Shown in pieces: positions 29,272 to 41,009 of a DNA stretch of 64,000 nucleotides. The DNA comes from Clostridiales bacterium. Lineage in GTDB: Bacteria > Bacillota > Clostridia > Lachnospirales > Lachnospiraceae. The position numbers and the translations under genes were made by a program. Each line of letters starts with the position of its first letter. The first letter of the stretch is position 1. The stretch is taken from contig JAATFT010000049.1 in NCBI GenBank assembly GCA_015655075.1, positions 1 through 64,000 on the forward strand. Reading direction: 5' to 3'. The notes below the pieces were generated by a model. The model ran no database searches. It was not told the DNA's origin and saw only the letters and a program-made list of their open reading frames with translations.

Positions 29272-29757
29272 TCAATAATAATTTTTAAAAATAGTATTTC
29301 TGCGCTTATTCAGTACAAACAATAATATTAATCCCAATACACCGCAGGATATTACCTCACCGGCGCCGACGGTTAACATCATAAAGGGAATGGGTAATGC
29401 CATGCCGTAAGCGTACCGGAGTATCCAGGGAATAATAATTGAATTTGCTAAAATAGGAGGAACAGGAACAAGAAATTTCTGCTTTCTTAATACATAGGAA
29501 CCAATTGCCCCGATTAAGGTTGCCGCAGACCCAAAGATGATATCAAGTATATCTGCCCCCGTAAGAAGATTTGCCAATAAGCATCCAACGGTTACCCCCG
29601 GTATGGCCGCGGGCGTAAAATAAGGCAATACGGTGAGTGCCTCAGCAATCCTTACCTGTATGTAGGAAAAGCTGATTGGTTTAAAGACATAAACCAGAAC
29701 AACATAAATAGCTGCGATTAAGGCAGCCTGAGTGATAAATTGAGTTTTGTTTTTCAT
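29272..29757 (-). CDS. queT: QueT-family transporter (queuosine precursor, ECF S-component)
   Basis: A 161-residue membrane protein with five or six helices and the QueT signature QVRIAEALTVLPYF followed by IPGVTVGCLLANLL. It imports preQ1 or a related queuine precursor, probably with a shared ECF module encoded elsewhere. AAAGGAG precedes the ATG on the reverse strand. An integrative element now separates it from what looks like its native promoter and leader at 40556-40666. An element-borne leader and promoter (29773-29885) take their place. Confidence 0.85.
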   Translation of the reverse strand: MKNKTQFITQAALIAAIYVVLVYVFKPISFSYIQVRIAEALTVLPYFTPAAIPGVTVGCLLANLLTGADILDIIFGSAATLIGAIGSYVLRKQKFLVPVPPILANSIIIPWILRYAYGMALPIPFMMLTVGAGEVISCGVLGLILLFVLNKRRNTIFKNYY

Positions 29758-29772
29758 ATGAAAATCTCCTTT

Positions 29773-29787
29773 AGTTTTGTTTTACGT
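29773..29787 (+). repeat. Putative attL core
   Basis: This 15-bp sequence is identical to the one at 40556. It lies immediately upstream of the queT Shine-Dalgarno. Confidence 0.7.
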
Positions 29788-29856
29788 GTGGAAGGTCTCG
29801 AACACACGAATTTATAAGTTGGAAACCTTGTGTTTGTGAGGGTTTACAACGTTCAT
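29773..29856 (-). ncRNA. Structured leader upstream of queT, element-side copy
   Basis: The RNA runs leftward toward queT. It contains the stem CGTGTG/CACACG (29785-29790 with 29803-29808), an ACCTTCC apical loop and a GG/CC mini-stem near 29821-29827. It ends in an A-rich AAAACAAAACT tail directly before the Shine-Dalgarno. The copy at 40556-40638 has the same layout with compensatory changes. The position before queT suggests a queuosine-precursor riboswitch; the tail and stem order recall preQ1-I, but the class is not proven. Confidence 0.55.
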
Positions 29857-29885
29857 ACTATAACACAAAGAGAGGTAAAAAGCAA
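29857..29885 (-). promoter_or_regulatory. Element-borne promoter for queT
   Basis: On the reverse strand, TTGCTT (29885-29880), a 17-nt spacer and TATAGT (29862-29857) direct transcription into the leader and queT. It lies inside the integrative element. Confidence 0.65.
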
Positions 29886-29889
29886 CTTA

Positions 29890-29912
29890 TACAACAATTC
29901 TACAACAATTTT
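29890..29912. repeat. Integrase arm-type sites, left end
   Basis: TACAACAATT is repeated twice in tandem. It is matched near the right end at 40441-40464, as expected for Tn916-like integrase arm sites. Confidence 0.6.
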
Positions 29913-29939
29913 GTTTTCAAAGTCTTCTATGACTAAAAA

Positions 29940-30875
29940 TTAAGATACCATATTTTTTCTATGGTTGTCCAAAAATGTTGTTAGACACGAGGGAGTAATG
30001 GCATATTGACTTAATTCACTTAATCTATTTGATGTAATATTTAGCTTAACGCATCTTAATTTTGATTCAAAGTATGTAGTAGTATTATTTAGTTCCTTAA
30101 GGTTATTAAGAATTGATATCATAAAATCTAATTGATTTTTTCCTCTGAATAATACGTCATATGAACCTTTGGTAACTAAGTCTTGCTTACAATGTTCCAA
30201 GTCATCATTATTTATCGATAGAGCATTCATTATATCACTAATAGTCTTATTATATTTTTCTGACTTTATGATTTTGTCTATTTTTGAAACATATAAGTGA
30301 TTAGTTTTGACGCTTCCAAATTTAAAATTACTGTTTGAATTTGATTTCATTCTTCGAAATAGTACAAGTGAATTAAACTCTATCATTCCTTCATTAAATT
30401 CCGAAAATCTAAGTCTAAAATCTTTAATACATTTAGTATAATCATTATCAGAAATATTTAAGCCAAATTCGCTTTGAATAATCTGTTGAAAACAGCTTTC
30501 ACATGCATACAAATTTTCAATTGAATAACAGGGTGTTTCATATAAATCTTCATCTGCACTTTTCATACTCAAATCATAATCTCTATCAATAAAAAACATT
30601 TTGCTAATTTTATCATATAGATTATCACTTTTTATTTTATTCATTAATTTTAATACCTCTTTCTTGTTTCCAACAGCGAATGGGATAAAGTATGAAGAAA
30701 AATAGCTTCTTATTCTTGAATTGTAATATTTTCCATCTTCTCCTTCAAAAAAGCAAAATGCATGAGTTGAAAAATATTCCTTATTATCAGTAAATTTTAT
30801 AAAAACAGAATTAGCACTCTCACGAGCTTGTCTCATATCCTCAATTTCCAATACTTCATTATCATCTAAAGACAT
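29940..30875 (-). CDS. ariB: DUF4435 protein, AriB-like effector of a PARIS defence system
   Basis: A 311-residue DUF4435 (Toprim-like) protein. Visible elements are FCFFEGEDGKYY near residue 40, VGNKKEVLKLM, the acidic FFIDRDYD motif (~117-124) and CYSIENLYA. In PARIS, AriB is released from the AriA ATPase when phage anti-restriction proteins are sensed, and it then shuts the cell down. Its Shine-Dalgarno AAGGAG lies in the last codons of the upstream ATPase gene, so the two are translationally coupled. The pairing and gene order support the call; a structure prediction would confirm it. Confidence 0.78.
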   Translation of the reverse strand: MSLDDNEVLEIEDMRQARESANSVFIKFTDNKEYFSTHAFCFFEGEDGKYYNSRIRSYFSSYFIPFAVGNKKEVLKLMNKIKSDNLYDKISKMFFIDRDYDLSMKSADEDLYETPCYSIENLYACESCFQQIIQSEFGLNISDNDYTKCIKDFRLRFSEFNEGMIEFNSLVLFRRMKSNSNSNFKFGSVKTNHLYVSKIDKIIKSEKYNKTISDIMNALSINNDDLEHCKQDLVTKGSYDVLFRGKNQLDFMISILNNLKELNNTTTYFESKLRCVKLNITSNRLSELSQYAITPSCLTTFLDNHRKNMVS

Positions 30876-32303
30876 TTATTTATGCTCCTTGGTATTTTTA
30901 ATATATTTACGCATTTCTTTTGAATCAAAATCAAATTCATTCTCAAATATAAAAGGAGAATGAGTTACAGTTAGTAAGAGTTTGCAATTATTCGACCTCA
31001 TAATATCAGGCAAAAGCATAGATTGCCATTTAATAGATAATGATAGCTCTGGCTCATCAATAATAACAATACTGTTGGTTTCATTTTCTAAGTATAATTT
31101 TGAAAACAATGATACTATTTGCTTTTCACCTGAAGATAATTGTGTTAATTCAATAGTGTGAGAGGAGAGTACTCCTTCTGATAAAAGATGTATTTTTAAA
31201 CTTAATTCACTTTGATTATAGTAAAATTTCTTTCCGTTTAGGTATTTATTACACGTGTTAGAAAAATTTTTAATCCTATCATCATATTTTTTTTGAACTT
31301 GGTAATTTGATATTAGCTTATCAATTAAGTTTAGTAGATATATATATTCATCTTTATATATGTCCTTAGTACTAATTAGATTAATAATTTTGTCTTTGTA
31401 CTCCGGTTCTATTACATTCCCCATTCTGTCTAATACAATTTTTACTGTTTCAGTATCGTATAGTTTTTGAGATATAATATTTATATTGCTTGAAGCAGCA
31501 AATTGTTTTAACAAAACACCTGTCATCTTGTTAAATCCGTCCATTGCTACATATCGTATGCTATTTAATATTTCATCAATAGCAGCCTGAACATCAGCCA
31601 TTCCAAATTTTATTAAAAGTTCATTATTATGAAATTTTTCAGGATTTATATTTAAATTAGCAAAATCATCTTCTATGCGTCTGTAGGTTGGTAGATATAT
31701 TATTTTCTGTTTAATGTTTTGGTTTATAGAAAGAACTAGCTTTTTTATCTTATCAGGGTTTCCCTTAGAGCTATTTCCATGTTTTATATTTATGCTTATA
31801 TATTCCAAAAGCCTATTCCTTGCATATGAAACTGGGACATCAAGCATTCTTGCAACTTTTCTTGATAAAGTTTCTATTTCTAGTTCATTATTGTAATCAA
31901 AGTCAGATAAACCATTTTCTGCTGTTATATCTAATAATAATTCCTCAAGAACATGATTAAAATACGAGTCCTCTCTCATTCTACCATTTATAGGACTTCG
32001 TCTTTTATTGTACATAGTTAAGTCTGAATTAGATATTATGTGAGGTTCATCTTCATTTGTAAATTTTATGTGAATAGTGTTGAAATTAATTTGAGATAAT
32101 TTTAAAAATTTTTTTTCTAATAGATAATATATACAATTTAATATAGTTGTCTTTCCAAGTCCATTTTCACCAATATATATATTGACTTCTTTTTCAAATG
32201 GTAATTCGACATCATATCGGTCAAAAAGTCCATAAATATTGATATACTCTAAACCAGTTTCATTCATTTTATTTATTACCTTTTCTTCATCAATATTACA
32301 CAT
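30876..32303 (-). CDS. ariA: AAA_15/OLD-like ATPase, AriA-like sensor of a PARIS defence system
   Basis: A 475-residue SMC/RecF-like ATPase. It begins GLFDRYDVELPF with a Walker A GENGLGKTT near residue 45, then the ABC signature QLSSGEKQIVSLF and Walker B IVIIDEPELSL near 400-425. The middle region is helical. ATG at 32303 follows AAAGAGGTG; a GTG at 32312 overlaps that site and is less likely. With the DUF4435 gene directly downstream it makes the two-gene PARIS arrangement, carried as cargo beside attL. Confidence 0.78.
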   Translation of the reverse strand: MCNIDEEKVINKMNETGLEYINIYGLFDRYDVELPFEKEVNIYIGENGLGKTTILNCIYYLLEKKFLKLSQINFNTIHIKFTNEDEPHIISNSDLTMYNKRRSPINGRMREDSYFNHVLEELLLDITAENGLSDFDYNNELEIETLSRKVARMLDVPVSYARNRLLEYISINIKHGNSSKGNPDKIKKLVLSINQNIKQKIIYLPTYRRIEDDFANLNINPEKFHNNELLIKFGMADVQAAIDEILNSIRYVAMDGFNKMTGVLLKQFAASSNINIISQKLYDTETVKIVLDRMGNVIEPEYKDKIINLISTKDIYKDEYIYLLNLIDKLISNYQVQKKYDDRIKNFSNTCNKYLNGKKFYYNQSELSLKIHLLSEGVLSSHTIELTQLSSGEKQIVSLFSKLYLENETNSIVIIDEPELSLSIKWQSMLLPDIMRSNNCKLLLTVTHSPFIFENEFDFDSKEMRKYIKNTKEHK

Positions 32304-32616
32304 TATATGCACCTCTTTCTATATTTATTAAATTTTTTCCTTATCAATGATTTCTTTAGCCTAAATTCAAAATATATTAATATAGACCTTTCTTTCATAC
32401 TCTAAAGTCATGATTTCTTATACATTCTACCATAAGTAAGACTTATATTATAGGAAAAATATATAAAATTTTTAGAGCTACCCAGTTGCTAATATAGAAA
32501 CCCAGTTCTTAGTTCCGAACCCCAGTGTTCTTATTATTTAGAATATATTGACCTAAGCAAGTCACTAAACTGTATTTTTGTACGTTTTTAAGTAAATTTG
32601 AAAGGAGTTGTTGATT
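32304..32616. other. Intergenic with three 20-bp phased repeats
   Basis: CCCAGT(T/G) starts at 32481, 32501 and 32521, exactly 20 bp apart (about two helical turns), in otherwise AT-rich DNA between the divergent AriA and J-domain genes. They could be protein-binding iterons. No gene is seen. Confidence 0.55.
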
Positions 32617-33093
32617 ATGAAGTGGTTTCACGAAGTAAACAATATGGATGAATTAAGGGGACAGTTTAAAAAACTATTATTAAAACATCATCCAGACAAT
32701 GGAGGTAGTGTGTCCGATATGCAGGAAATCAATGCAGAATATGACCTTTTATTTGACCATCTAAAGGCTGAAAACAAGTCAGATGGTCAATCGTATACCT
32801 TTGACGAAAATGAGGAGAATCAAGAGTTTAAGGATGTTATCAATTTTATTATAGGCTACCAGATCAAAATTGAAATCATTGGGTCATGGGTATGGTGTTT
32901 TGAATCCTACGCTTGCAAGGAGCAATTAAAAGAATTAGGTTTTAAATATGCACCTAAGAAAAAAGCTTGGTGTTGGCATTATGGAGATTATAAACGTCAT
33001 CATAGGCAAGAAATCAGCCTTGAAGATATTCGCATGAAGTACGGAAGCCAAACAGTCAGCCATAAAGAGAAGCAATATGCGTTAAACCAGTAA
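32617..33093 (+). CDS. J-domain (DnaJ-like) protein of mobile elements
   Basis: A 158-residue protein. A J domain lies at residues ~1-50 with an intact LKHHPDNGG motif (HPD). A C-terminal region with WVWCFESYACKEQLKELGF and KKKAWCWHYGD follows. Similar proteins occur in ICEs and plasmids of Firmicutes; they may engage host Hsp70 during replication. The start at 32617 follows AAAGGAG with 9-nt spacing. A short terminator (AAGCC/GGCTT then a T-run) follows at 33096. Confidence 0.78.
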   Translation: MKWFHEVNNMDELRGQFKKLLLKHHPDNGGSVSDMQEINAEYDLLFDHLKAENKSDGQSYTFDENEENQEFKDVINFIIGYQIKIEIIGSWVWCFESYACKEQLKELGFKYAPKKKAWCWHYGDYKRHHRQEISLEDIRMKYGSQTVSHKEKQYALNQ

Positions 33094-33095
33094 AT

Positions 33096-33117
33096 AAGCC
33101 ATAAGGCTTTATTTTTT
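33096..33117 (+). terminator. Small intrinsic terminator
   Basis: AAGCC-ATAA-GGCTT is followed by TATTTTTTT directly after the J-domain gene. Confidence 0.6.
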
Positions 33118-33146
33118 TGCTTAAATTTAAGAAAGGAAGTGTCAGT

Positions 33147-33320
33147 ATGTGTTATTTTCAAGGACGGTCAGCAGGGGAATATTGCTCCTGTTGCCAGAAA
33201 TGTAAGGACTACTTATCCGTATGTGCTTTTATTGTTATCAATGGATATGTGGTAGCTGAATGTGATTTTGATTTCTGTTGTTATTGTCCTCATTATGCAG
33301 TATATGGGGAAAGGAGATGA
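33147..33320 (+). CDS. Small cysteine-rich protein
   Basis: A 57-residue protein with about ten cysteines (SCCQKC, ECDFDFCCYC), suggesting a metal-binding knuckle. ATG at 33147 follows AAAGGAAGTGTCAGT. It lies in a run of small accessory genes of the element. Its function is unknown. Confidence 0.6.
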   Translation: MCYFQGRSAGEYCSCCQKCKDYLSVCAFIVINGYVVAECDFDFCCYCPHYAVYGERR

Positions 33321-33326
33321 AAGGTT

Positions 33327-33599
33327 ATGAAGTTGTTGAATTATGATACCAAGGTTTTAATTATGCGGAATATACGAAGTACTGTTAAGGAGTTTCCGAT
33401 TACCTATACTACTGCCCAATATAAAATTTTGTGCCGATTAGTTGTTCAAAAACATATAGGCAGGGAGTTCTTTTATTTTTTGTTATTAGAGTTGTACGGT
33501 CTGTCGGACTGGAAACAGTTAAATTATCAGCAAATGTATGAGTTGATACATATATTGACCTATTGGAATTATAAGAAAGGAAGAATAAGCCATGAGTAA
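33327..33599 (+). CDS. Hypothetical protein of the element
   Basis: A 90-residue protein, rich in aromatic residues and Lys, with no recognised domain. It begins 6 nt after the cysteine-rich gene and overlaps the next gene by 8 nt, so it belongs to a small operon. Confidence 0.6.
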   Translation: MKLLNYDTKVLIMRNIRSTVKEFPITYTTAQYKILCRLVVQKHIGREFFYFLLLELYGLSDWKQLNYQQMYELIHILTYWNYKKGRISHE

Positions 33600-33840
33600 A
33601 TTATTTGAAGAATTATTTGAAAGCTTAGTACAAGAGAGCAGATATGAGAAGGCAGACCAGTTGCTGACAGATGAAATTTGCAAAGCCTTAGAGCCATATA
33701 AGGAAACCATGTCACAATCGGAGTATGAACAATTTCGAGACATTTTGTTTTACATTTCTCATATGGCTATGAAACAATCTTTTGAGATTGGATTTAAGTC
33801 AGCGGTTTCCTTTATGATAGATTGCATGAGAATGGATTAA
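33592..33840 (+). CDS. Hypothetical DUF6809-like protein
   Basis: An 82-residue helical protein with the pattern LFESLVQESRYEKADQLL then QSFEIGFKSAVSFMIDCM. It resembles small DUF6809-type proteins common in Lachnospiraceae elements. GAAAGGAAG precedes the start. It converges on the XRE regulator gene with no gap. Confidence 0.6.
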   Translation: MSKLFEELFESLVQESRYEKADQLLTDEICKALEPYKETMSQSEYEQFRDILFYISHMAMKQSFEIGFKSAVSFMIDCMRMD

Positions 33841-34176
33841 CTACATAATTGCAATCATCTTTAAAATCTTTCGTTTCTTCTCATCATCAAGGTCTTTTAC
33901 TACTCTTAGAATTTCATTATCCAGTGCTAAAGATGAATTAACATACTGGTCAGCTAAGAGGTAATCTATGCTTGTATTCAAAGCATTTGCAATACCAAGC
34001 AAGATATTCAGTGAAGCTTTTGTATGGCTGTTTTCAATATTGGAGATATGAGATACGAAACAGCCTACACGTTCTGCAAGGTTCTCTTGCGTTAAATTTT
34101 GAGCGGTACGGACTTCTTTAATCCGCAATCCCAATTTTTTATAATCAATATTTTTTTTCGTTGTATTATCGGTCAA
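33841..34176 (-). CDS. XRE-family transcriptional regulator of the element
   Basis: A 111-residue Cro/CI-like protein. The helix-turn-helix at ~15-70 has GLRIKEVRTAQNLTQENLAERVG and ISNIENSHTKASL; a short helical tail follows. It is transcribed away from the surface-protein gene at 34295. It probably controls excision or transfer genes of the element. Confidence 0.82.
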   Translation of the reverse strand: MTDNTTKKNIDYKKLGLRIKEVRTAQNLTQENLAERVGCFVSHISNIENSHTKASLNILLGIANALNTSIDYLLADQYVNSSLALDNEILRVVKDLDDEKKRKILKMIAIM

Positions 34177-34294
34177 TTAAAAACACCTCCAAATTTCTTT
34201 ATATGAGTACTTTTAATTGTAAAGATAAATGAGGTGTGTTAGAATGTTCTGGAAAAGTTAAATATACTTATATAAACAATAAGGAGGAAAAGTT

Positions 34295-35212
34295 ATGAAA
34301 ACAACACAAAAATCTTTACTTAATGTTATGTTATTATGCATGGTGCTTATTGGTGTGGTACTGATACCCACGAAAGCTTATGCAAGTAGTAACAGTGATT
34401 TTGTTATTGAAAACGGAGTTTTGAAAGAGTATAAAGGTACTGGAGGAAACGTCACAATACCAAAAGGAGTAACAAGAATAGATGATTATGCATTTTATGA
34501 GTGCAAAAAATTAACCAGTATTAAAATGCCAGATACGGTTACATCCATTGGATACAGAGCATTTCAATATTGCACCAGCTTAAAGATGATAAAACTGTCT
34601 AATAACATAACAGATATTGATATGGGGGCATTTGCTCAATGCAAAAGTTTAGAGAAGATTGATATTCCGAGCAAGGTAACCTCTATTTATTGGGGAACTT
34701 TTAATGATTGTAAAAAACTCACTGTGATAAAAATTCCAGATAGTGTTATGTTTATTGGTATGGCTGCTTTTGCAGGGTGTTCCAACTTAAAAGTCATTTA
34801 TATACCCGAAAGTGTTACGACAATGGAATTTGAGCCTTTTTCTGGTTGTAGTAAACTTACTATTTATGGACATGAGAATTCTTATGCTCAAACATATGCA
34901 AGTGATAATAAGATACCGTTTAAATTAGCAGACGGACAATATTATAAAGCATTGTTGAAAGAAGTTACAGGTACTAAACAGCTTACAATTAATAAAACAA
35001 AAGGGAAGAACATAGAAATAGTACTTCCTAGTGGACTATCTTCTAAGAATGTAACAGTTACGTATAAGAGCAGTAATACTAAAATGGCTACTGTTTCAAA
35101 AAAAGGTAAGGTCACGGCTAAGAAGAAAAAAGGAACTGCCAAAATAACGATTACAGTTAAAGATAAATATGGAAATAAGAAAATTCTTACGACCAAGATT
35201 ACAGTAAAATAA
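34295..35212 (+). CDS. Secreted leucine-rich-repeat (BspA type) protein
   Basis: A 305-residue exported protein. A signal peptide covers ~1-31 (ending AYAS). Five LRR_5/BspA repeats of ~23 residues cover ~45-190, with phrases such as AFYECKKLTSIKMPDTVTSI. A C-terminal Ig-like (Big2-type) domain with SSNTKMATVSKKGKV covers ~225-305. It may mediate adhesion. AAGGAGG precedes the ATG. It is cargo of the element. Confidence 0.82.
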   Translation: MKTTQKSLLNVMLLCMVLIGVVLIPTKAYASSNSDFVIENGVLKEYKGTGGNVTIPKGVTRIDDYAFYECKKLTSIKMPDTVTSIGYRAFQYCTSLKMIKLSNNITDIDMGAFAQCKSLEKIDIPSKVTSIYWGTFNDCKKLTVIKIPDSVMFIGMAAFAGCSNLKVIYIPESVTTMEFEPFSGCSKLTIYGHENSYAQTYASDNKIPFKLADGQYYKALLKEVTGTKQLTINKTKGKNIEIVLPSGLSSKNVTVTYKSSNTKMATVSKKGKVTAKKKKGTAKITITVKDKYGNKKILTTKITVK

Positions 35213-35234
35213 TTATACAAGAGAGGATGTAACA

Positions 35235-35582
35235 ATGATAATTTATATTCTTATGTTCCTAATTGGTGGGGCAGTTTCTTCATTAACAGGTCTATTCGAT
35301 AATGGAAATTCTATTAGGATTGATACACCACAGCAGTTAATCGGTATGATTGCATTTATCATAGCGATAATAGGCTTATATGGTTTCATAATAAGCCTAT
35401 GGTTTAAGATACTTAGGTTATTTTATCCTAAAGCAAGTAAGAAACGTTTAAGAAGTATAACAGGCAGTATACTTTTCATTTTATTTATTGTGATTTGCTG
35501 TTTTACTGGTATTGGAGCAGTGACACTGTTTTTCATAAAACGTCCACTTGCTAATTTAGTACCGAAAGAGAATGATAGATGA
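35235..35582 (+). CDS. Small membrane protein
   Basis: A 115-residue protein with about three hydrophobic helices (starting MIIYILMFLIGGAVSS). The family is not recognised. It starts 23 nt after the LRR gene with GAGAGGATGTAACA upstream, so it is likely co-transcribed. A terminator-like hairpin with TTTTTTT follows at about 35596-35632. Confidence 0.6.
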   Translation: MIIYILMFLIGGAVSSLTGLFDNGNSIRIDTPQQLIGMIAFIIAIIGLYGFIISLWFKILRLFYPKASKKRLRSITGSILFILFIVICCFTGIGAVTLFFIKRPLANLVPKENDR

Positions 35583-35595
35583 TTACATATGCAAA

Positions 35596-35632
35596 AGGAT
35601 AAGGCTCAAAAAATGGGTCTTATTCTTTTTTT
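35596..35632 (+). terminator. Intrinsic terminator
   Basis: AAGGATAAGGCTC pairs with GGGTCTTATTCTT (with G-U pairs), then a T-run. It ends the LRR/membrane protein unit. Confidence 0.6.
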
Positions 35633-35857
35633 ATGTAAAATTCAATTTTCTGGCGGAGAACCCACTTGCAAGTTATAAAAAGGTATTCTGCCTTATTTTT
35701 TTGTAACATTTGGCTTTGTGTACTGGTAGATTTTTATACAAAAATGATCCCGCAGAGAATGAAAATCCATTAAAAATAGGGCGTAGCAGTGTAATATACT
35801 TGATATTTTTTATTAATGTAGTTCACTTTTATATATTTGATTTAATTTGTAACATAT

Positions 35858-36904
35858 TTATATCTTATTCTCATACTGCTGGTATAAAAATTCTAATCGT
35901 ACTTTGTTAAATTTAGTAGATTTAATCCAACTCTTAAATGATGTTAAATCATTTACTGCCTTATAATTATCATAATGGAGTGTGCAATCTATTGTCCAGT
36001 CTATATACTGTTTATTTAAAAAATCTTCTCCATATTTCTTTATGGTACTTTCTGTATGAGTTCTATTATATTGGTATCCTCTTGCGTTATTTCTAGCTAT
36101 AACAAAATCATCACTGGCTTTACGGTGCATGATTTCATCACATGATAGATAGGTATCATTATGTGGCAGTCTACAATATTTTTCTGAATTTCTGAATTTA
36201 GGATAAAACAATCTTTTACAAGATAAGCATTTGTTAACCTTTTTTTGAATCATAAAATACTTTTGTAAATCTAACATTAAATAGGATAAGGTATCATAAA
36301 TGCTATAAGTGGTATGTGCAATACCATTACTATCTAATTGAATAGAGGCGGTGATTTTAATTTTATTCATTTCTGCCTGTAGAGGACTAAGAAAGGACTG
36401 CTCTTTCTTTAATAATATATCTTCAATATGCTGACGGAGTTTCTTATTTATTAGAATGGATGGTATGTAGGTTGTATGGTCTTTCCAGTCAAAAGATTCT
36501 AAATATATATTTTCTGACAATTCACATAGAATCAAATAAGAAATGAGTTCCATTTGTTTGTTATCTAAATATCCATTGTTTAAATGATGAATAAGCGGAG
36601 TTTGTAATGGTTCAATCAACAAATGAATTGTTTCCTTATTTATTCTATCAGGAAAAATTCCGTATTTAGCGTATTTTTTTAACAATTCAGGATGCGTATT
36701 TTGAATAGAAGATAATGTATCTGTTAATTGAAACGTATTACCAAAGTCACCAACGAATTCAGCTATATCATTAATCATCTTGCTATAATTTATATTAGTT
36801 AAGCTCAACGCATATTTGCCATATTCTATTGCGGTCTCGTCTTTTCCAGAAGAAATAGTAAAATTAGTTTTATTCTCTACTAATATAATTCCATTATTAT
36901 TCAT
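35858..36904 (-). CDS. DUF6076-like zinc-ribbon protein
   Basis: A 348-residue cytoplasmic protein. A putative zinc finger lies at about residues 222-250 (KCLSCKRLFYP ... EKYC), followed by a basic ARGYQYNRTH segment. Such proteins occur in Firmicutes mobile elements; the function is unknown. AAAGGATATTAAT precedes the ATG. It runs opposite to its right-hand neighbour at 37069. Confidence 0.6.
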   Translation of the reverse strand: MNNNGIILVENKTNFTISSGKDETAIEYGKYALSLTNINYSKMINDIAEFVGDFGNTFQLTDTLSSIQNTHPELLKKYAKYGIFPDRINKETIHLLIEPLQTPLIHHLNNGYLDNKQMELISYLILCELSENIYLESFDWKDHTTYIPSILINKKLRQHIEDILLKKEQSFLSPLQAEMNKIKITASIQLDSNGIAHTTYSIYDTLSYLMLDLQKYFMIQKKVNKCLSCKRLFYPKFRNSEKYCRLPHNDTYLSCDEIMHRKASDDFVIARNNARGYQYNRTHTESTIKKYGEDFLNKQYIDWTIDCTLHYDNYKAVNDLTSFKSWIKSTKFNKVRLEFLYQQYENKI

Positions 36905-37068
36905 ATTAATATCCTTTTTATATATATCATTGAAATTAGTAAGCTAAAGCAATATATTAACTTACGGATTTATTTTATCATGTTATTCTCTAGTTGTATA
37001 CGACAACTACTTCATTACAGTTGCTTTGGCTAGCTAGCAAATAATATGAAAAACAAGGAGGAAGTAAA

Positions 37069-37266
37069 ATGACTAATACAGAAATTAAACACTTACTAAA
37101 GAAAGAAAATATTTTAATGTGGCAGGTGGCTAGAGTATTGGAAATTCATGAAACAACTTTTGGTAAATGGTTTAGAGACCCATTGACTAAGGAACAACAA
37201 ATGCAGGTTTTATCAGCTGTTGAGGAAATTAAATTAAACAGGATAAAGCAACAGAAGTACGAATAA
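37069..37266 (+). CDS. Small helix-turn-helix protein
   Basis: A 65-residue protein with an HTH-like core (MWQVARVLEIHETTFGKWF). AAGGAGGAAGTAAA precedes it. Proteins of this kind sit just before Rep/relaxase genes in Lachnospiraceae elements and may regulate them. Confidence 0.65.
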   Translation: MTNTEIKHLLKKENILMWQVARVLEIHETTFGKWFRDPLTKEQQMQVLSAVEEIKLNRIKQQKYE

Positions 37267-37370
37267 GGAGGAGAAAATTATCTGTGACGGATTCCCTTCG
37301 GTTATTAATACAAGCATTTAACGAGGAGGTCTATATACTAAAAGTGACATAACCGTATGGTAAGGATATG

Positions 37371-37413
37371 GCTATAAGGGCGATAATCCTATCGGATTTA
37401 TCTCTCTTATAGC
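37371..37413. repeat. Hairpin, candidate origin of transfer/replication
   Basis: Three nested pairs, GCTATAAG/CTTATAGC, GATAA/TTATC and TCC/GGA, close a TATC loop. It lies 65 nt before the Rep_trans-type gene, where Rep/MOBT proteins commonly nick. No nick sequence is confirmed. Confidence 0.45.
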
Positions 37414-37478
37414 ATATATGTTTATTCATTACGTGAGTGTTGCACTATAGTATAAGTCACTCAAATTGGAGGAGTGTT

Positions 37479-38549
37479 ATGCATACATTTGAAATCATAT
37501 GCAACCTTTCCCCCTATGATTATGACTATCTAAAAAATAATTTGCCAAAACTCGAACCTGTTTCAGAATATGTGGGACGAACCAATTATTATTCTGCAAA
37601 AGGTATTACACAGGTTGAATTAAGAACGAATAGATTCGAATACCAAGGCAGGATGATAAGCAAATACTATCTGGTATTAAGGTGTAATCCCTCGGTGATT
37701 ATGGGAGATAGTAAAGTATTTTTACTGGATATGGATAAGTATAATTCTGATGAAATTATAAAGCGTTTACAAAAACGCTTATACGAAATCAACGAGTTTA
37801 GATATATTCAGATAGATAAATTACCCATACAAGTATTTAGAGCAAACAGGGTTGATATAGCAAAGGATATACAGCTGTTACAACCAAAGATAGCAGTATG
37901 GCTTTGCAACATGTCATTTCCATATAATTACCACAATATGAAACGAAAGCAAATTAATAAAGACCCTAGCATCTTATACTTTGAATCCTGCTGTTTTGCC
38001 AGTGGTTCAAGAGAATTTAATCTATATGATAAATGGATTGCCAGTGTAAATACAGGAAAGATAATTACTTTAGCGGAGGAAAACAGGCTTAAGCATACAT
38101 TTCGTTTGGAGGTTCAAATCAAGAAAAAAGGAGTTGCATACATGGCAAAAAAGTTAACAACAAAAAGGTCTATTGAGCCATATTTAAATAAAGGTTTTTG
38201 CCATGACTATTTAGAAAAAGAAATTCGTCCCGTATTTGGCATACAGAAGTATGTCAGCAGGAGTAAGGCGGTAGATATTATCAATATGAGTCAATTTAAG
38301 ACTTATGAGAAAATTATTATGATATCCATTATTGATATGATAATGCAATTTAAAGGCTTGTATGGGCTGGAAAAAGCAATATCAGATGTAAGTATACATA
38401 CACCGACCCAGTATGGAAACTTACGGTCATTTCGAGAACGTTGGCTTACAAAAATAAGACAATTGGGCATACAACCAATTGTGATACCCGATAATTTTGG
38501 AATTGATGAAATTCCAAGCATATTAGACTTATTAACAAATGAAATTTAG
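37479..38549 (+). CDS. Rep_trans / MOBT-type replication initiator or relaxase
   Basis: A 356-residue protein similar in layout to replication initiation factors of the Rep_trans family, which include Orf20/NicK MOBT relaxases of ICEs. It has early FEIICNLSPYDYDYL and FRANRVDIAKDI segments and C-terminal PTQYGNLRSFRERWL. It likely nicks the element's origin for rolling-circle replication and mobilization. TTGGAGGAGTGTT precedes ATG 37479; the frame opening at 37437 lacks a site. Confidence 0.72.
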   Translation: MHTFEIICNLSPYDYDYLKNNLPKLEPVSEYVGRTNYYSAKGITQVELRTNRFEYQGRMISKYYLVLRCNPSVIMGDSKVFLLDMDKYNSDEIIKRLQKRLYEINEFRYIQIDKLPIQVFRANRVDIAKDIQLLQPKIAVWLCNMSFPYNYHNMKRKQINKDPSILYFESCCFASGSREFNLYDKWIASVNTGKIITLAEENRLKHTFRLEVQIKKKGVAYMAKKLTTKRSIEPYLNKGFCHDYLEKEIRPVFGIQKYVSRSKAVDIINMSQFKTYEKIIMISIIDMIMQFKGLYGLEKAISDVSIHTPTQYGNLRSFRERWLTKIRQLGIQPIVIPDNFGIDEIPSILDLLTNEI

Positions 38550-38562
38550 GAGGAGATATATT

Positions 38563-38868
38563 ATGTTTACAGAAAGAGTTTTTGAATATTTTGATACAGT
38601 AGATTGTTTGGTTGAAAGACAAGATAAGGAAGGATTAGCTTATTTTATTAGTATACGTATTAATGAGCTTATTTCACTCTTGAATACTGTGTTTTCAAAA
38701 AAACTGTCAGATGAAAGAAAAGAAGCAATCATGAATTATATATTAAAATATTCTCTTGATTATAAGCAAGTTCCTTTAGATGAATTAGCAGCAGATCTGT
38801 GCACGTTAATCGGATTTATTGAAATAGCTGAATGTGAGGATAAGGCAGGAGGAATACAGGATGAATAA
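38563..38868 (+). CDS. Hypothetical protein of the element
   Basis: A 101-residue acidic helical protein of unknown function. ATG at 38563 follows AGGAGGAGATATATT. It overlaps the excisionase gene by 8 nt, so the two are translationally linked. Confidence 0.55.
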   Translation: MFTERVFEYFDTVDCLVERQDKEGLAYFISIRINELISLLNTVFSKKLSDERKEAIMNYILKYSLDYKQVPLDELAADLCTLIGFIEIAECEDKAGGIQDE

Positions 38869-39046
38869 GAGTAACTTGATTGATAAAAAAGCGGTCAATA
38901 CTGAAACACTTATGGAAGTATTAGATTGCGGAAGAAAAACTGCCACAGAGATAGGTAACAAGGCAGGAGCAAAAATGTGTGTTGGAAGAAAAATTCTCTG
39001 GAATTTAAAACTCATTCAACAGTATCTTGATACTATTGCTGAATAG
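38861..39046 (+). CDS. Excisionase-like DNA-binding protein
   Basis: A 61-residue protein with a winged-helix-like pattern (TLMEVLDCGRKTATEIGNKAG then GRKILWNL), typical of small excisionases encoded just before Tyr integrases. GCAGGAGGAATACAGG precedes ATG 38861. Confidence 0.7.
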   Translation: MNKSNLIDKKAVNTETLMEVLDCGRKTATEIGNKAGAKMCVGRKILWNLKLIQQYLDTIAE

Positions 39047-39246
39047 CATTAGTCATATATTCATCATTTAGGAAAGGGGATGATATACAAATAATCTTTA
39101 TGAAACCTGTTAACAAGGGATTAGGAACGCCGACCAAAGCAATCTCCTAATCCCACCAGTACAGGAAAGGAATACTCCTGCAAGCTGATTATATCATACA
39201 GGACTATTCCTTTCTACAAATAAATGTCAGAGAGGAATGATTTATT
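39047..39246 (+). other. Excisionase-integrase intergenic region
   Basis: It holds two strong hairpins: GGGATTAGGA/TCTCCTAATCCC at about 39117-39155, and AGGAAAGGAATA/TATTCCTTTCT at about 39164-39217. They may attenuate integrase expression. Confidence 0.5.
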
Positions 39247-40377
39247 ATGGCTAAAAATATGAAAACAAAGGAACTTCCAAAGGGGATTGTATTACGCTCT
39301 GATGGGTTTTATATGGGGAGCTTTTATTATCATGGAGAGAGAAATTGTGTCTATGATAAAGACCTTAAGATTGTGGTTCAAAAACTTGAAGATTTACGCT
39401 ATGAAATGAAACATGGTATGCATGCCAAAGCACAGAATTTATCTCTTAATTCATGGTATGATACATGGATTGAGGATTATAAAAAAAATATGCTTAAGGT
39501 GGGTACATACACTATCTATAAGAACCAATATAACTATTACATCCGCAAGAAATTAGGCAAAAAAATGATTGCTGATATAAGGGCGGAACATATCAATAAG
39601 CTTTACAATGAGTTTGTAGCCAAGAATTTTGCTACTGGCAGCATAAAATTGATTTCTGCCATGTTAAATGGCTGTTTCAAGCAAGCTGAAATGAATGGAA
39701 TTATATCTAAAAATCCAATTCCTCTTGTAAGCATTCCAAAAGGTAAATCAAAAAAAGAACGTATAGTATTTACTGTTGAACAACAGGAATTATTTTTGAA
39801 ATATGCTGAAACAAGTTACTTACATGATTTTTTTCTCTTAGCTCTTATGACTGGCATGCGAAATGGTGAGTTGCGAGGGTTGCAATGGAATGATATTGAT
39901 TTTAAGAAAAGAATGATACATATTAATCATACTCTAGTTTATACGGAGGATAAGGGGCATTTCCTTGATGACCCTAAAACTAGAACATCAAAGAGAGATA
40001 TTCCCATGATAGACAGATGCTATGATTTGTTAAGGCAGTTATATGCAAATTCAAAGGATGAAAATGTAATTAACTTTAATCAGAATGGTTTCGTATTTGA
40101 CTTGCATGACGGAAGTAATATCACAAGGGATAGAGTAACCCTAGAACTTAATAAAATTACTCTTGATATGAAGAATGATGGTATTGAGGTAGGTCATATA
40201 ACTTGCCATTGTTTCAGACATACATTTGCTACCAGAGCTATTGAGCAGGGAATACCGCCACAGGTTTTAAAAACCATATTAGGACACAGCAGTTTAGCTA
40301 TGACAATGGATTTGTATTCGCATGTGCTTCCAAATACTAAATTGGAAGAAATGAAGAAGTTAGCTAATCTATTCTAA
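39247..40377 (+). CDS. int: Tyrosine recombinase/integrase (Tn916 Int-like)
   Basis: A 376-residue integrase. An arm-binding AP2-like N-terminus (residues ~10-60) is followed by a core-binding SAM-like domain (~70-150) and a catalytic domain with R of TGMRNGELRGL, HxxR of CHCFRHTFATRA, H of LGHSSLAMTMDLYSH and the final Tyr. It integrates and, with the excisionase, excises the element. The last gene of the element, it is followed by a hairpin terminator (AGCCATAATTATC paired arms at ~40384-40422) and the arm sites. Confidence 0.93.
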   Translation: MAKNMKTKELPKGIVLRSDGFYMGSFYYHGERNCVYDKDLKIVVQKLEDLRYEMKHGMHAKAQNLSLNSWYDTWIEDYKKNMLKVGTYTIYKNQYNYYIRKKLGKKMIADIRAEHINKLYNEFVAKNFATGSIKLISAMLNGCFKQAEMNGIISKNPIPLVSIPKGKSKKERIVFTVEQQELFLKYAETSYLHDFFLLALMTGMRNGELRGLQWNDIDFKKRMIHINHTLVYTEDKGHFLDDPKTRTSKRDIPMIDRCYDLLRQLYANSKDENVINFNQNGFVFDLHDGSNITRDRVTLELNKITLDMKNDGIEVGHITCHCFRHTFATRAIEQGIPPQVLKTILGHSSLAMTMDLYSHVLPNTKLEEMKKLANLF

Positions 40378-40440
40378 TCAATAAAGCCATAATTATCCCT
40401 GCTATAGAGATAATTATGGCTCATAATATTTACATCAATA

Positions 40441-40464
40441 CTACAACAATTTTACAACAATCTC
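40441..40464. repeat. Integrase arm-type sites, right end
   Basis: CTACAACAATTTTACAACAA carries two arm sites matching those at 29890-29912. Confidence 0.6.
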
Positions 40465-40555
40465 AATAGCACTCCATAATACCTAATGACATGAATGTAT
40501 TGATTTTACTAATGAAATAGCACTCTATGATATTCCATGAAACATAAAATCGAAA

Positions 40556-40570
40556 AGTTTTGTTTTACGT
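40556..40570 (+). repeat. Putative attR core
   Basis: It is identical over 15 bp to 29773-29787. It lies within the 3' tail of the displaced leader RNA. Confidence 0.7.
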
Positions 40571-40638
40571 CAGGAAGGTTACGAACTGACGTTTGTGATT
40601 GGCGCAAGCCTTGACTTGTAAGGGGTTGCAACGTTATT
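40556..40638 (-). ncRNA. Displaced queT leader (chromosomal copy)
   Basis: It has the same architecture as 29773-29856: ACGTCAG/CTGACGT stem (40567-40573 with 40586-40592), TTCG..ACCTTCC loop, GGC/GCC mini-stem (40601-40610) and a conserved AACGTTG 5' part. The stems differ from the other copy by paired changes, showing RNA structure is conserved. It is now cut off from queT by the element. Confidence 0.55.
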
Positions 40639-40666
40639 AGTATACCATGAAAAACAAGGTTGTCAA
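40639..40666 (-). promoter_or_regulatory. Promoter of the displaced leader
   Basis: On the reverse strand, TTGACA (40666-40661), a 16-nt spacer and TATACT (40644-40639) read into the leader. It is probably the original queT promoter. Confidence 0.7.
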
Positions 40667-41009
40667 GCGTTGACTCAATTTCTGACTCAACTTTTAGGAA
40701 ATAAAAGGGAGATAAAAGATTGAGGCGGTTGGTTTAACTTAAACTAATTGATAATTAAGGGGGAAGTATTCCTTTTAAGGGCAAAATAACGTGATACTAA
40801 TTTGCTGTTAGTATAAGAAAAGTACTGTTGTTTTTTAGTACTTATGTTGAGTGGAGCGGATTGCAGTATTATGGATAAATGTGTAGTATAATATTAATTA
40901 ATATATTGATGTTCTTGATTTGAAGTAAAGAATATTTAAAGCATTCAAGAACAATGCCACATATATGTAGCATTGTAAAGAGAGCATCAGAATGGGCTGA
41001 AAGTGATGG

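Follow-up and report, generated by a model that had tools for sequence, protein, structure and literature searches.

In a 64,000-nucleotide (nt) stretch of DNA from a Clostridiales bacterium of the family Lachnospiraceae (GenBank assembly GCA_015655075.1, contig JAATFT010000049.1, positions 1 to 64,000; here called the window), the leader of the queT gene is split. A complete copy lies directly upstream of queT, at 29773-29885 on the reverse strand, and a shortened copy lies 10.78 kb away, at 40556-40666. A 15-nt core, AGTTTTGTTTTACGT, is found in both copies (29773-29787 and 40556-40570), embedded in a 36-nt repeat of 83% identity, and the DNA from core to core carries a tyrosine integrase gene, an AriA/AriB pair, and several further genes. 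We conclude that this arrangement very probably arose from a small integrative element that uses the queT preQ1-I riboswitch as its bacterial attachment site (attB) and supplies a promoter and the 5′ half of the aptamer, thus rebuilding the switch. A preliminary description of the region had placed a 15-bp attachment core in the tail of a structured leader, just before the queT Shine-Dalgarno (SD) sequence, and had described a reverse-strand leader with its promoter at each end. Both features are present, with the core corresponding to riboswitch loop L3; the host promoter matches consensus at 11 of 12 positions, and the element promoter was called by reading only. The further proposal that the element targets a conserved RNA leader and rebuilds it is supported here and can be sharpened to a preQ1-I riboswitch whose loop L3 is the core; neither outcome that it had named as refuting, an empty site where the distal leader does not abut queT or a lack of covariation, was observed.

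The queT leader as a predicted preQ1-I riboswitch

Judged by its sequence, the structured leader of queT is a preQ1-I (class I, type I) riboswitch. The gene downstream (29272-29757, reverse strand, as are all leader features below) is the host queT (Pfam QueT, PF06177, E = 1.6e-48), preceded by a host-side SD region at 29764-29771 in which AAGG (29768-29771) is the 3′ strand of the pseudoknot helix P2. The adjoining core, attL (29773-29787), was defined as a direct repeat and comprises the A-rich loop L3 (TAAAACAAAACT, placed by alignment to the Rfam model RF00522) and the end of the P1 3′ strand. The element-supplied P1 hairpin (29785-29808) has the stem CGTGTG/CACACG (29785-29790 with 29803-29808) and the loop TTCGAGACCTTC, whose CCTT at 29792-29795 pairs with the host AAGG; the sequence, the RF00522 alignment, and covariation all point to this fold. 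In the shortened leader, the stem is instead CGTCAG/CTGACG (40568-40573 with 40586-40591).

The preliminary description had read these two stems as differing by compensatory changes and had suggested a covariation search. We collected leaders with a pattern that fixed the 3′ part of the loop, one P1 base, and the A-rich tail and left the remaining stem free; leaders with AAGG were called complete and those without it orphan. Over 64 distinct complete leaders, P1 was paired in 384 of 384 cells, five of its six pairs varied on both sides, and the covariation score was reached by none of 500 shuffles; moving the partner by 1 to 3 columns also abolished pairing. The compensatory change in P1 is therefore real. 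P2, formed between the loop CCUU and the AAGG of the SD, was present in 64/64 complete leaders, which follows largely from the definition of complete, and it lends no covariation support because it is near-invariant. AACGTTG, which had been described as kept, is indeed common to both leaders of the window; across the 27 two-ended sites described below, it is not a general feature.

According to the available parts of PMC11625349, class I type I riboswitches are marked by UU after the 5′ strand of P1, UC before its 3′ strand, a C in the tail, and a P2 formed with the SD. The UU, UC, and tail C are invariant in all 64 leaders; the UC and tail C are fixed by the collecting pattern, and the UU was free to vary. 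In its P1, A-rich L3, SD-pairing P2, and queuosine-related downstream gene, the window leader resembles RF00522 preQ1-I; it differs in its 6-bp P1, its sub-threshold score, and its origin from two DNA sources.

The scores count against this assignment. The RF00522 match to the left leader, beside queT, is full-length (25.5 bits; E = 0.0028, searching 301 bases), and that to the right, orphan leader covers only positions 6 to 37 (13.8 bits, E = 2.7). Intact leaders, at 25 to 29 bits, and the orphan, at 13.8 bits, all fall below the Rfam gathering cut-off of 39 bits, and a scan at that threshold gave no match anywhere in the window. At other loci, the model found the queT leader in 5 of 20 (25.7 to 28.7 bits, E up to 0.5), with none in the other 15. 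The collecting pattern, moreover, itself fixes the core and part of the loop, and AAGG defines which leaders are complete. Scores under the cut-off favor a different view, in which the leader belongs to some other RNA class and has only a likeness to preQ1-I. We consider this very improbable, given that the class I type I features in the parts of PMC11625349 available are found in the leader; that queT follows 42/42 complete leaders checked (41 by a distance rule and L110 by eye, with a few loci representing the same site); and that a match of similar score (25.3 bits) in the same genome precedes open reading frames (ORFs) identified by reading as queC-like and queF-like. PreQ1-III (RF02680) was also considered as the leader class and had no match in the genome, in a search run without a positive control.

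Upstream of P1, the motif AAGGTC is present in 36 of 73 distinct leaders, compared to 1.5 expected in shuffles (for example, L002 and L210). It is complementary to the aptamer loop GACCTT and may be an alternative loop partner that frees the SD; here, alternative pairing is inseparable from simple conservation.

The empty site and the position of the crossover

The preliminary description had suggested looking for a genome without the element in which the counterpart of the displaced leader abuts queT, and G004 is such a genome. In this member of the same genus (queT 88% identical), one leader runs straight into queT, and the 19.9 kb examined revealed no second one. That leader is 82% identical to the displaced window leader and 64% identical to the queT-adjacent one. 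Since the G004 and displaced leaders share the CGTCAG/CTGACG stem, the crossover would lie 3′ of P1; since the displaced leader lacks AAAGGAG, it would also lie 5′ of the SD, that is, inside TAAAACAAAACT, loop L3.

The distal boundary was compared with G442, whose integrase is 88% identical to that of the window. The two are 87% identical over the 150 nt just inside the distal core and 47% identical in the host leader outside it; the all-pairs medians across sites are 59% and 54%, respectively. Together, these sequence comparisons with G004 and G442 support the element boundaries from both sides. The integrated element accordingly spans 29773-40570, core to core, or about 10.8 kb (core spacing, 10,783). 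At its far end lie the attR core (40556-40570, a direct repeat on the reverse strand); the displaced host P1 hairpin (40568-40591), followed by element DNA without AAGG; and the displaced host leader and promoter (40592-40666), the portion that is 82% identical to the G004 empty-site leader.

We propose that a tyrosine integrase would recombine these sites within the A-rich L3, between the self-contained P1 hairpin and the AAGG/SD strand that closes P2. P1, which varies on both strands, would thereby travel with the promoter as a single unit. The element promoter and 5′ aptamer half would join the host's P2 3′ strand, SD, and queT to form a complete chimeric riboswitch, and the host promoter and half-aptamer would be pushed to the far end, without P2 or SD and often facing a terminator-like hairpin. 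Because P2, the only helix that is split, is near-invariant and L3 is identical on both sides, any element half would be able to complete any host half. The window integrase would presumably catalyze this reaction and the element would be able to excise; the rebuilt leader would be transcribed and, as a predicted preQ1-I riboswitch, would respond to preQ1 and control queT.

Recurrence in other genomes

Orphan halves were sought in genome contigs with a pattern ending in AAAACNT, which returned 48 loci. Three were set aside as chance matches (L123, L139, and L154) and two were undecided (L124 and L143); the 43 retained loci come from Lachnospiraceae genera or from uncultured Clostridiales or Clostridia bacteria. 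Six of the 48 belong to two-ended genomes already in our set, and 37 were followed. A search for every leader in the 37 orphan-bearing genomes turned up another match in 33. Each of the 33 has a match beside queT, with the canonical AAGG in 32 and TATAGG in G436. The orphan half stood alone in G410, G418, G437, and G439. At least five of these 37 genomes (G416, G417, G422, G435, and G444) are the same assemblies as G014, G176, G155, G168, and G236.

Sites with both halves on one stretch and in the same orientation numbered 27, with spacings of 1.07 to 17.2 kb, and contain no duplicate arising from repeated assemblies. Left outside this set are G417, with opposed orientation, and G411, which spans two sequence pieces. 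At 27/27 two-ended sites, the complete leader is the one beside queT and the orphan is the distant one; since the AAGG rule sets the two classes, what this result tells is which side is which.

In an even sample of the family, 148 of 397 genomes had the exact leader pattern, 13 of them with two matches; two of these, G126 and G378, have two complete leaders each, leaving 11. In G126 (L234/L235) and G378 (L236/L237), the contigs stop within or about 100 nt upstream of the complete leaders, which might reflect a repeated leader or an element carried by some members of the population and not by others.

A clade of integrases at queT leaders

The window integrase (39247-40377, forward strand) has a Phage_integrase domain (E = 6.3e-28) and a SAM-like N-terminal domain (E = 2.3e-9). 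We placed it in a tree of 44 rows, built by a quick search from proteins of at least 340 residues and at least 150 bits, one copy each; 27 of the 30 integrase loci from a protein search of the family were retained. The window integrase falls in a single clade of 24 (Shimodaira-Hasegawa-like approximate likelihood ratio test support, 99), and 22 of the 24 are at queT leaders. For 21 of them, the leader half lies just beyond the integrase 3′ end (51 to 211 nt, with one at 545 nt); the 22nd, in G157, is inside a two-leader interval. Over all 22 leader-adjacent rows of the tree, the distance is 51 to 211 nt in 21 and 545 nt in one. Because many rows entered the tree through their leaders, a fair comparison is restricted to the 27 protein-search rows, in which the integrase is at a queT leader in 6 of 8 rows within the clade (the window included) and in 0 of 19 outside it. 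Among the matches listed, the nearest phage integrase is 38% identical and the nearest plasmid integrase 33%.

Two layouts recur. Of the 24 clade rows, 18 have the first, with the integrase gene at the far end and convergent with the orphan half. The second, in which the gene is just upstream of the complete leader and faces queT, is seen in G424, G443, and G236 and in the more distant G411. A full-length integrase of this family is present in 18 of the 27 two-leader intervals. In L025 (G090), a clade integrase lies upstream of a membrane protein ORF that, by reading, resembles another energy-coupling factor (ECF) S component.

Repeats beside the supplied promoter

In the window, direct repeats of TTGTTGTA with an 11-bp period (29890-29912) abut the supplied promoter, and the same repeats are found at the integrase end (40431-40464). 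We take such repeats, which were found by a repeat search, to be putative arm-type sites of the integrase, in keeping with the association between repeat type and integrase N-terminus described next. Exact direct repeats of at least 7 nt are present upstream of the supplied promoter in 21 of 27 proximal leaders, with an 11-bp period in 19 of the 21, and in the sequences listed the repeat abuts the −35 element. In 17 of 24 cases, the proximal repeat unit is found again at the distal end of the same element, compared to 47 of 624 comparisons with the ends of other elements.

Repeat type tracks the integrase N-terminus. Among 18 integrases, it predicted N-terminal identity beyond that of the rest of the protein (0/5,000 permutations, with repeat classes assigned by hand). 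The N-terminal 60 residues of the G441 integrase are 58 to 61% identical to those of G420, G427, and G445, compared to 96 to 97% for the rest of the protein, and are 92% identical to those of G438, which shares the repeats of G441. By this comparison, G441 is a natural swap of the integrase N-terminus.

Counterevidence and other explanations

Several observations weigh against an element that carries and rebuilds the switch. The element promoter, TTGCTT-17-TATAGT by reading, has a poor −35, and a promoter scanner made no call there. Own repeat units are missing from the distal end in 7 of 24 elements, and exact repeats of 7 nt or longer are absent from 6 of 27 proximal leaders. Two clade integrases, in G090 and G211, are at no queT leader; the G157 integrase is 4 kb from the nearer end of its interval; and the G411 integrase is beside a leader while outside the clade, in a row found through its leader. 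Degenerate leaders were sought near the mid-element integrase of G157 and near the G090 and G211 integrases, and none was found. In G417 (L218), the orphan and complete leaders are 3.9 kb apart in opposite orientation, for which an inversion, a second queT locus, and an assembly error are candidates. Viral contigs with the orphan pattern gave three matches, all of one unrelated sequence and attributable to chance. Finally, 8 of the 27 intervals contain no integrase of this family, and G151 contains only a 99-residue stretch of one; these eight could be remnants, or could have been mobilized in trans as passengers.

The eight intervals without an integrase would also fit a local duplication of the queT regulatory region whose copies later diverged, with the integrase a bystander, as would the near-identical leader pairs in G423 and G428. 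We find this barely credible. The SD and queT accompany one half only. Recombination at the core agrees with the empty site in G004, with the distal-inside DNA that G442 shares next to another host leader, and with the integrase clade.

A more serious, though still unlikely, alternative is that the integrase needs only the conserved DNA core and that the carried leader is an incidental remnant, captured earlier from a host and not kept up for the regulation of queT. Here too G423 and G428 are relevant, since their supplied leaders closely resemble the adjacent displaced ones. Against this, P1 is intact through compensatory change in 64/64 complete leaders, whereas all six pairs are present in 45 of 52 distinct orphans; the contrast is weak, as the orphan set includes the three chance loci, the two undecided ones, and the queT-adjacent variant of G436. 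The repeats, in addition, adjoin the supplied promoter without breaking it. The element-borne half-riboswitch is the favored explanation.

Predicted consequences for transcription

The element-supplied upstream leader and promoter (29809-29885, reverse strand) have a −10 TATAGT at 29857-29862 and a −35 TTGCTT at 29880-29885, both read from the sequence. The displaced host promoter, TTGACA-16-TATACT, matches consensus at 11 of 12 positions. The element promoter thus looks weaker than the one it displaces, and queT output may fall. For dusA, lower expression after integration is a precedent in the parts of PMC8409611 available.

Between the displaced host promoter and the integrase gene is a terminator-like hairpin (40384-40422, reverse strand) with a 17-pair stem, compared to a mean of 0.2 in shuffles. 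It would halt transcription from the displaced promoter before this reads antisense into the integrase gene. Across sites, a crude test found terminator-like hairpins at 18 of 29 orphan ends, compared to 18 of 110 interior windows; for the window element, the counting script chose another hairpin, inside the integrase gene. At the queT end, the AriB/AriA genes (29940-32312) are oriented toward the rebuilt riboswitch, and since they point toward it, read-through into queT is possible.

Possible exchange of leaders between hosts

We tentatively consider, at somewhat less than an even chance, that the queT promoter and 5′ aptamer half form a mobile regulatory cassette in the Lachnospiraceae. Elements would bring the cassette and may die, leaving it as the host leader, and the rebuilt switch may then be split again. 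For 14 queT-adjacent leaders in the genus, occupied sites included, leader identity did not follow queT identity (rho = 0.02 over 91 pairs, versus 0.70 for one part of queT against another). With family genomes added (39 leaders, occupied sites included), the values were 0.28 versus 0.69 over 741 pairs. In G012 and G004, for example, the starts of queT are 91% identical and the leaders 43%.

Some displaced leaders have arm-like repeats of the types of other elements, as in the distal leaders of the window (TTGAGTCA) and G438 (GTGGGTA). In the window, two TTGAGTCA repeats (40671-40690; 8-nt unit, 12-bp offset) lie upstream of the host −35 and are possibly the fossil of an earlier element. Direct repeats of at least 7 nt were found in 7 of 29 displaced leaders (110 nt scanned, without a matched control; the G409 repeat is of low complexity). 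G009 (L087) and G429 (L214) have stacked orphan halves, pointing to stacked insertions in which a rebuilt riboswitch was seemingly split again, and in G427 (L213) and G441 (L211), closely related elements have their element and host leader types exchanged. The discordant leader and queT histories, the repeats at displaced leaders, and the stacked insertions suggest that leaders may circulate as cassettes. On the same reading, integrase arm sites abutting the −35 would also couple queT transcription to the integrase level.

Other results speak against such circulation. We had considered that most queT leaders might carry fossil arm repeats, and only 5 of 32 scored complete leaders have a repeat of at least 7 nt (controls: 0/64 upstream windows and 25/6,400 shuffles; 7 leaders without a promoter call were left unscored). 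Of these five, only L003 (G004) is at an empty site. Leaders also evolve fast, extra hairpins distort their alignment, and queT itself may move.

Relation to known integrative elements

Genomic islands that restore tRNA and transfer-messenger RNA (tmRNA) genes are described for Islander (PMC4383910, available in part). There, as here, a tyrosine integrase splits a structured RNA gene, the island restores its target, and the displaced fragment marks the far end. In the queT element the target is a riboswitch, and the restored part is the 5′ half and promoter of the regulatory leader of a protein gene. In the parts of PMC8409611 available, IMEVchUSA3, at the 5′ end of dusA, and SXT, in prfC, are likewise target-restoring elements; they insert at the 5′ end of a gene and provide a new promoter, and dusA expression after integration is shown there. 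Those elements supply a new N-terminus, whereas the queT element leaves the coding sequence intact and contributes half of a ligand-sensing RNA.

The preliminary description knew of no element that uses a queT leader as attB. This needs qualifying, as an EJ-1-like prophage integrated in a PreQ1 riboswitch of Enterococcus cecorum has been reported (PMC10117131). It resembles the window element in sitting in a preQ1 riboswitch and differs in lying upstream of a nucleoside hydrolase gene, whose expression it is described as likely to alter, with no rebuilding reported in the passages available. A riboswitch rebuilt by a carried half was not described among the matches listed in the open-access literature, a scope that mostly leaves subscription journals outside, and the main text of a review of integrative and mobilizable elements (PMC5704250) does not contain the word "riboswitch."

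With the queT element, target restoration, known for tRNA genes and the 5′ ends of protein genes, would also apply to a metabolite-sensing RNA. The element points to a seam at which a pseudoknot can be cut and rejoined: the variable helix remains intact on one side, and the split affects only the near-invariant one. Evolution has recombined aptamer halves and hosts here into a natural series of chimeric riboswitches. The integrases would form a family for a defined 12- to 15-nt site that is common in the Lachnospiraceae, with a possible route for moving promoters and riboswitch halves between species. Orphan half-riboswitches would, in turn, mark the ends of such elements, some of which carry defense-like genes.

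Other genes of the element

The remaining genes of the window element lie between the rebuilt leader and the integrase. Two adjacent reverse-strand cargo genes encode an AriB-like (DUF4435) protein (29940-30875; PADLOC AriB, E = 3.8e-32; Pfam DUF4435, E = 2.1e-36) and an AriA-like AAA ATPase (30876-32312; PADLOC AriA, E = 2e-33; Protein Data Bank AriA 8ux9, E = 1.3e-14). The AriA/AriB pair is PARIS-like, and its predicted role would be phage defense. It resembles PARIS in placing an AriA-like ATPase gene next to an AriB-like DUF4435 gene as cargo; the other two intervals scanned for cargo (G011 and G001) hold different genes.

These are followed by genes for a J-domain-like protein (32608-33093, forward; Pfam DnaJ, E = 0.0002, 21.8 bits, below the 27.8-bit cut-off; phrog_15863, of unknown function, E = 1.7e-38), a helix-turn-helix repressor-like protein (33841-34176, reverse; HTH_3, E = 1.2e-13), and a BspA-type leucine-rich-repeat protein (34295-35212, forward; LRR_5, E = 8.4e-47). 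Two proteins (35858-36904, reverse, and 37437-38549, forward) have no family match in Pfam, PADLOC, NCBIfam, or PHROGs at the limits used, and a small DUF6462-like protein (38834-39046, forward; 20.3 bits, below the 27.1-bit cut-off) is encoded beside the integrase gene. No relaxase or conjugation gene was named among the scanned element ORFs, a scan that left out a few short ORFs and in which two larger ones had no family.

Cargo at other sites varies. The G011 interval (L079, 12248-19389) has no integrase of this family and carries a reverse transcriptase, an OLD-like ATPase, and a protein kinase as defense-like cargo. The G001 interval (L086, 17257-19368) is 2.1 kb long, without an integrase and with a PemK-like gene; its end, of ACATTC type, recurs in slightly altered form beside orphan halves in L087, L128, L130, and L156, and intervals of this type may be a family moved in trans. 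In G409 (L226), a 1.07-kb two-leader interval contains two small ORFs that, by reading, resemble a PIN-toxin/antitoxin pair.

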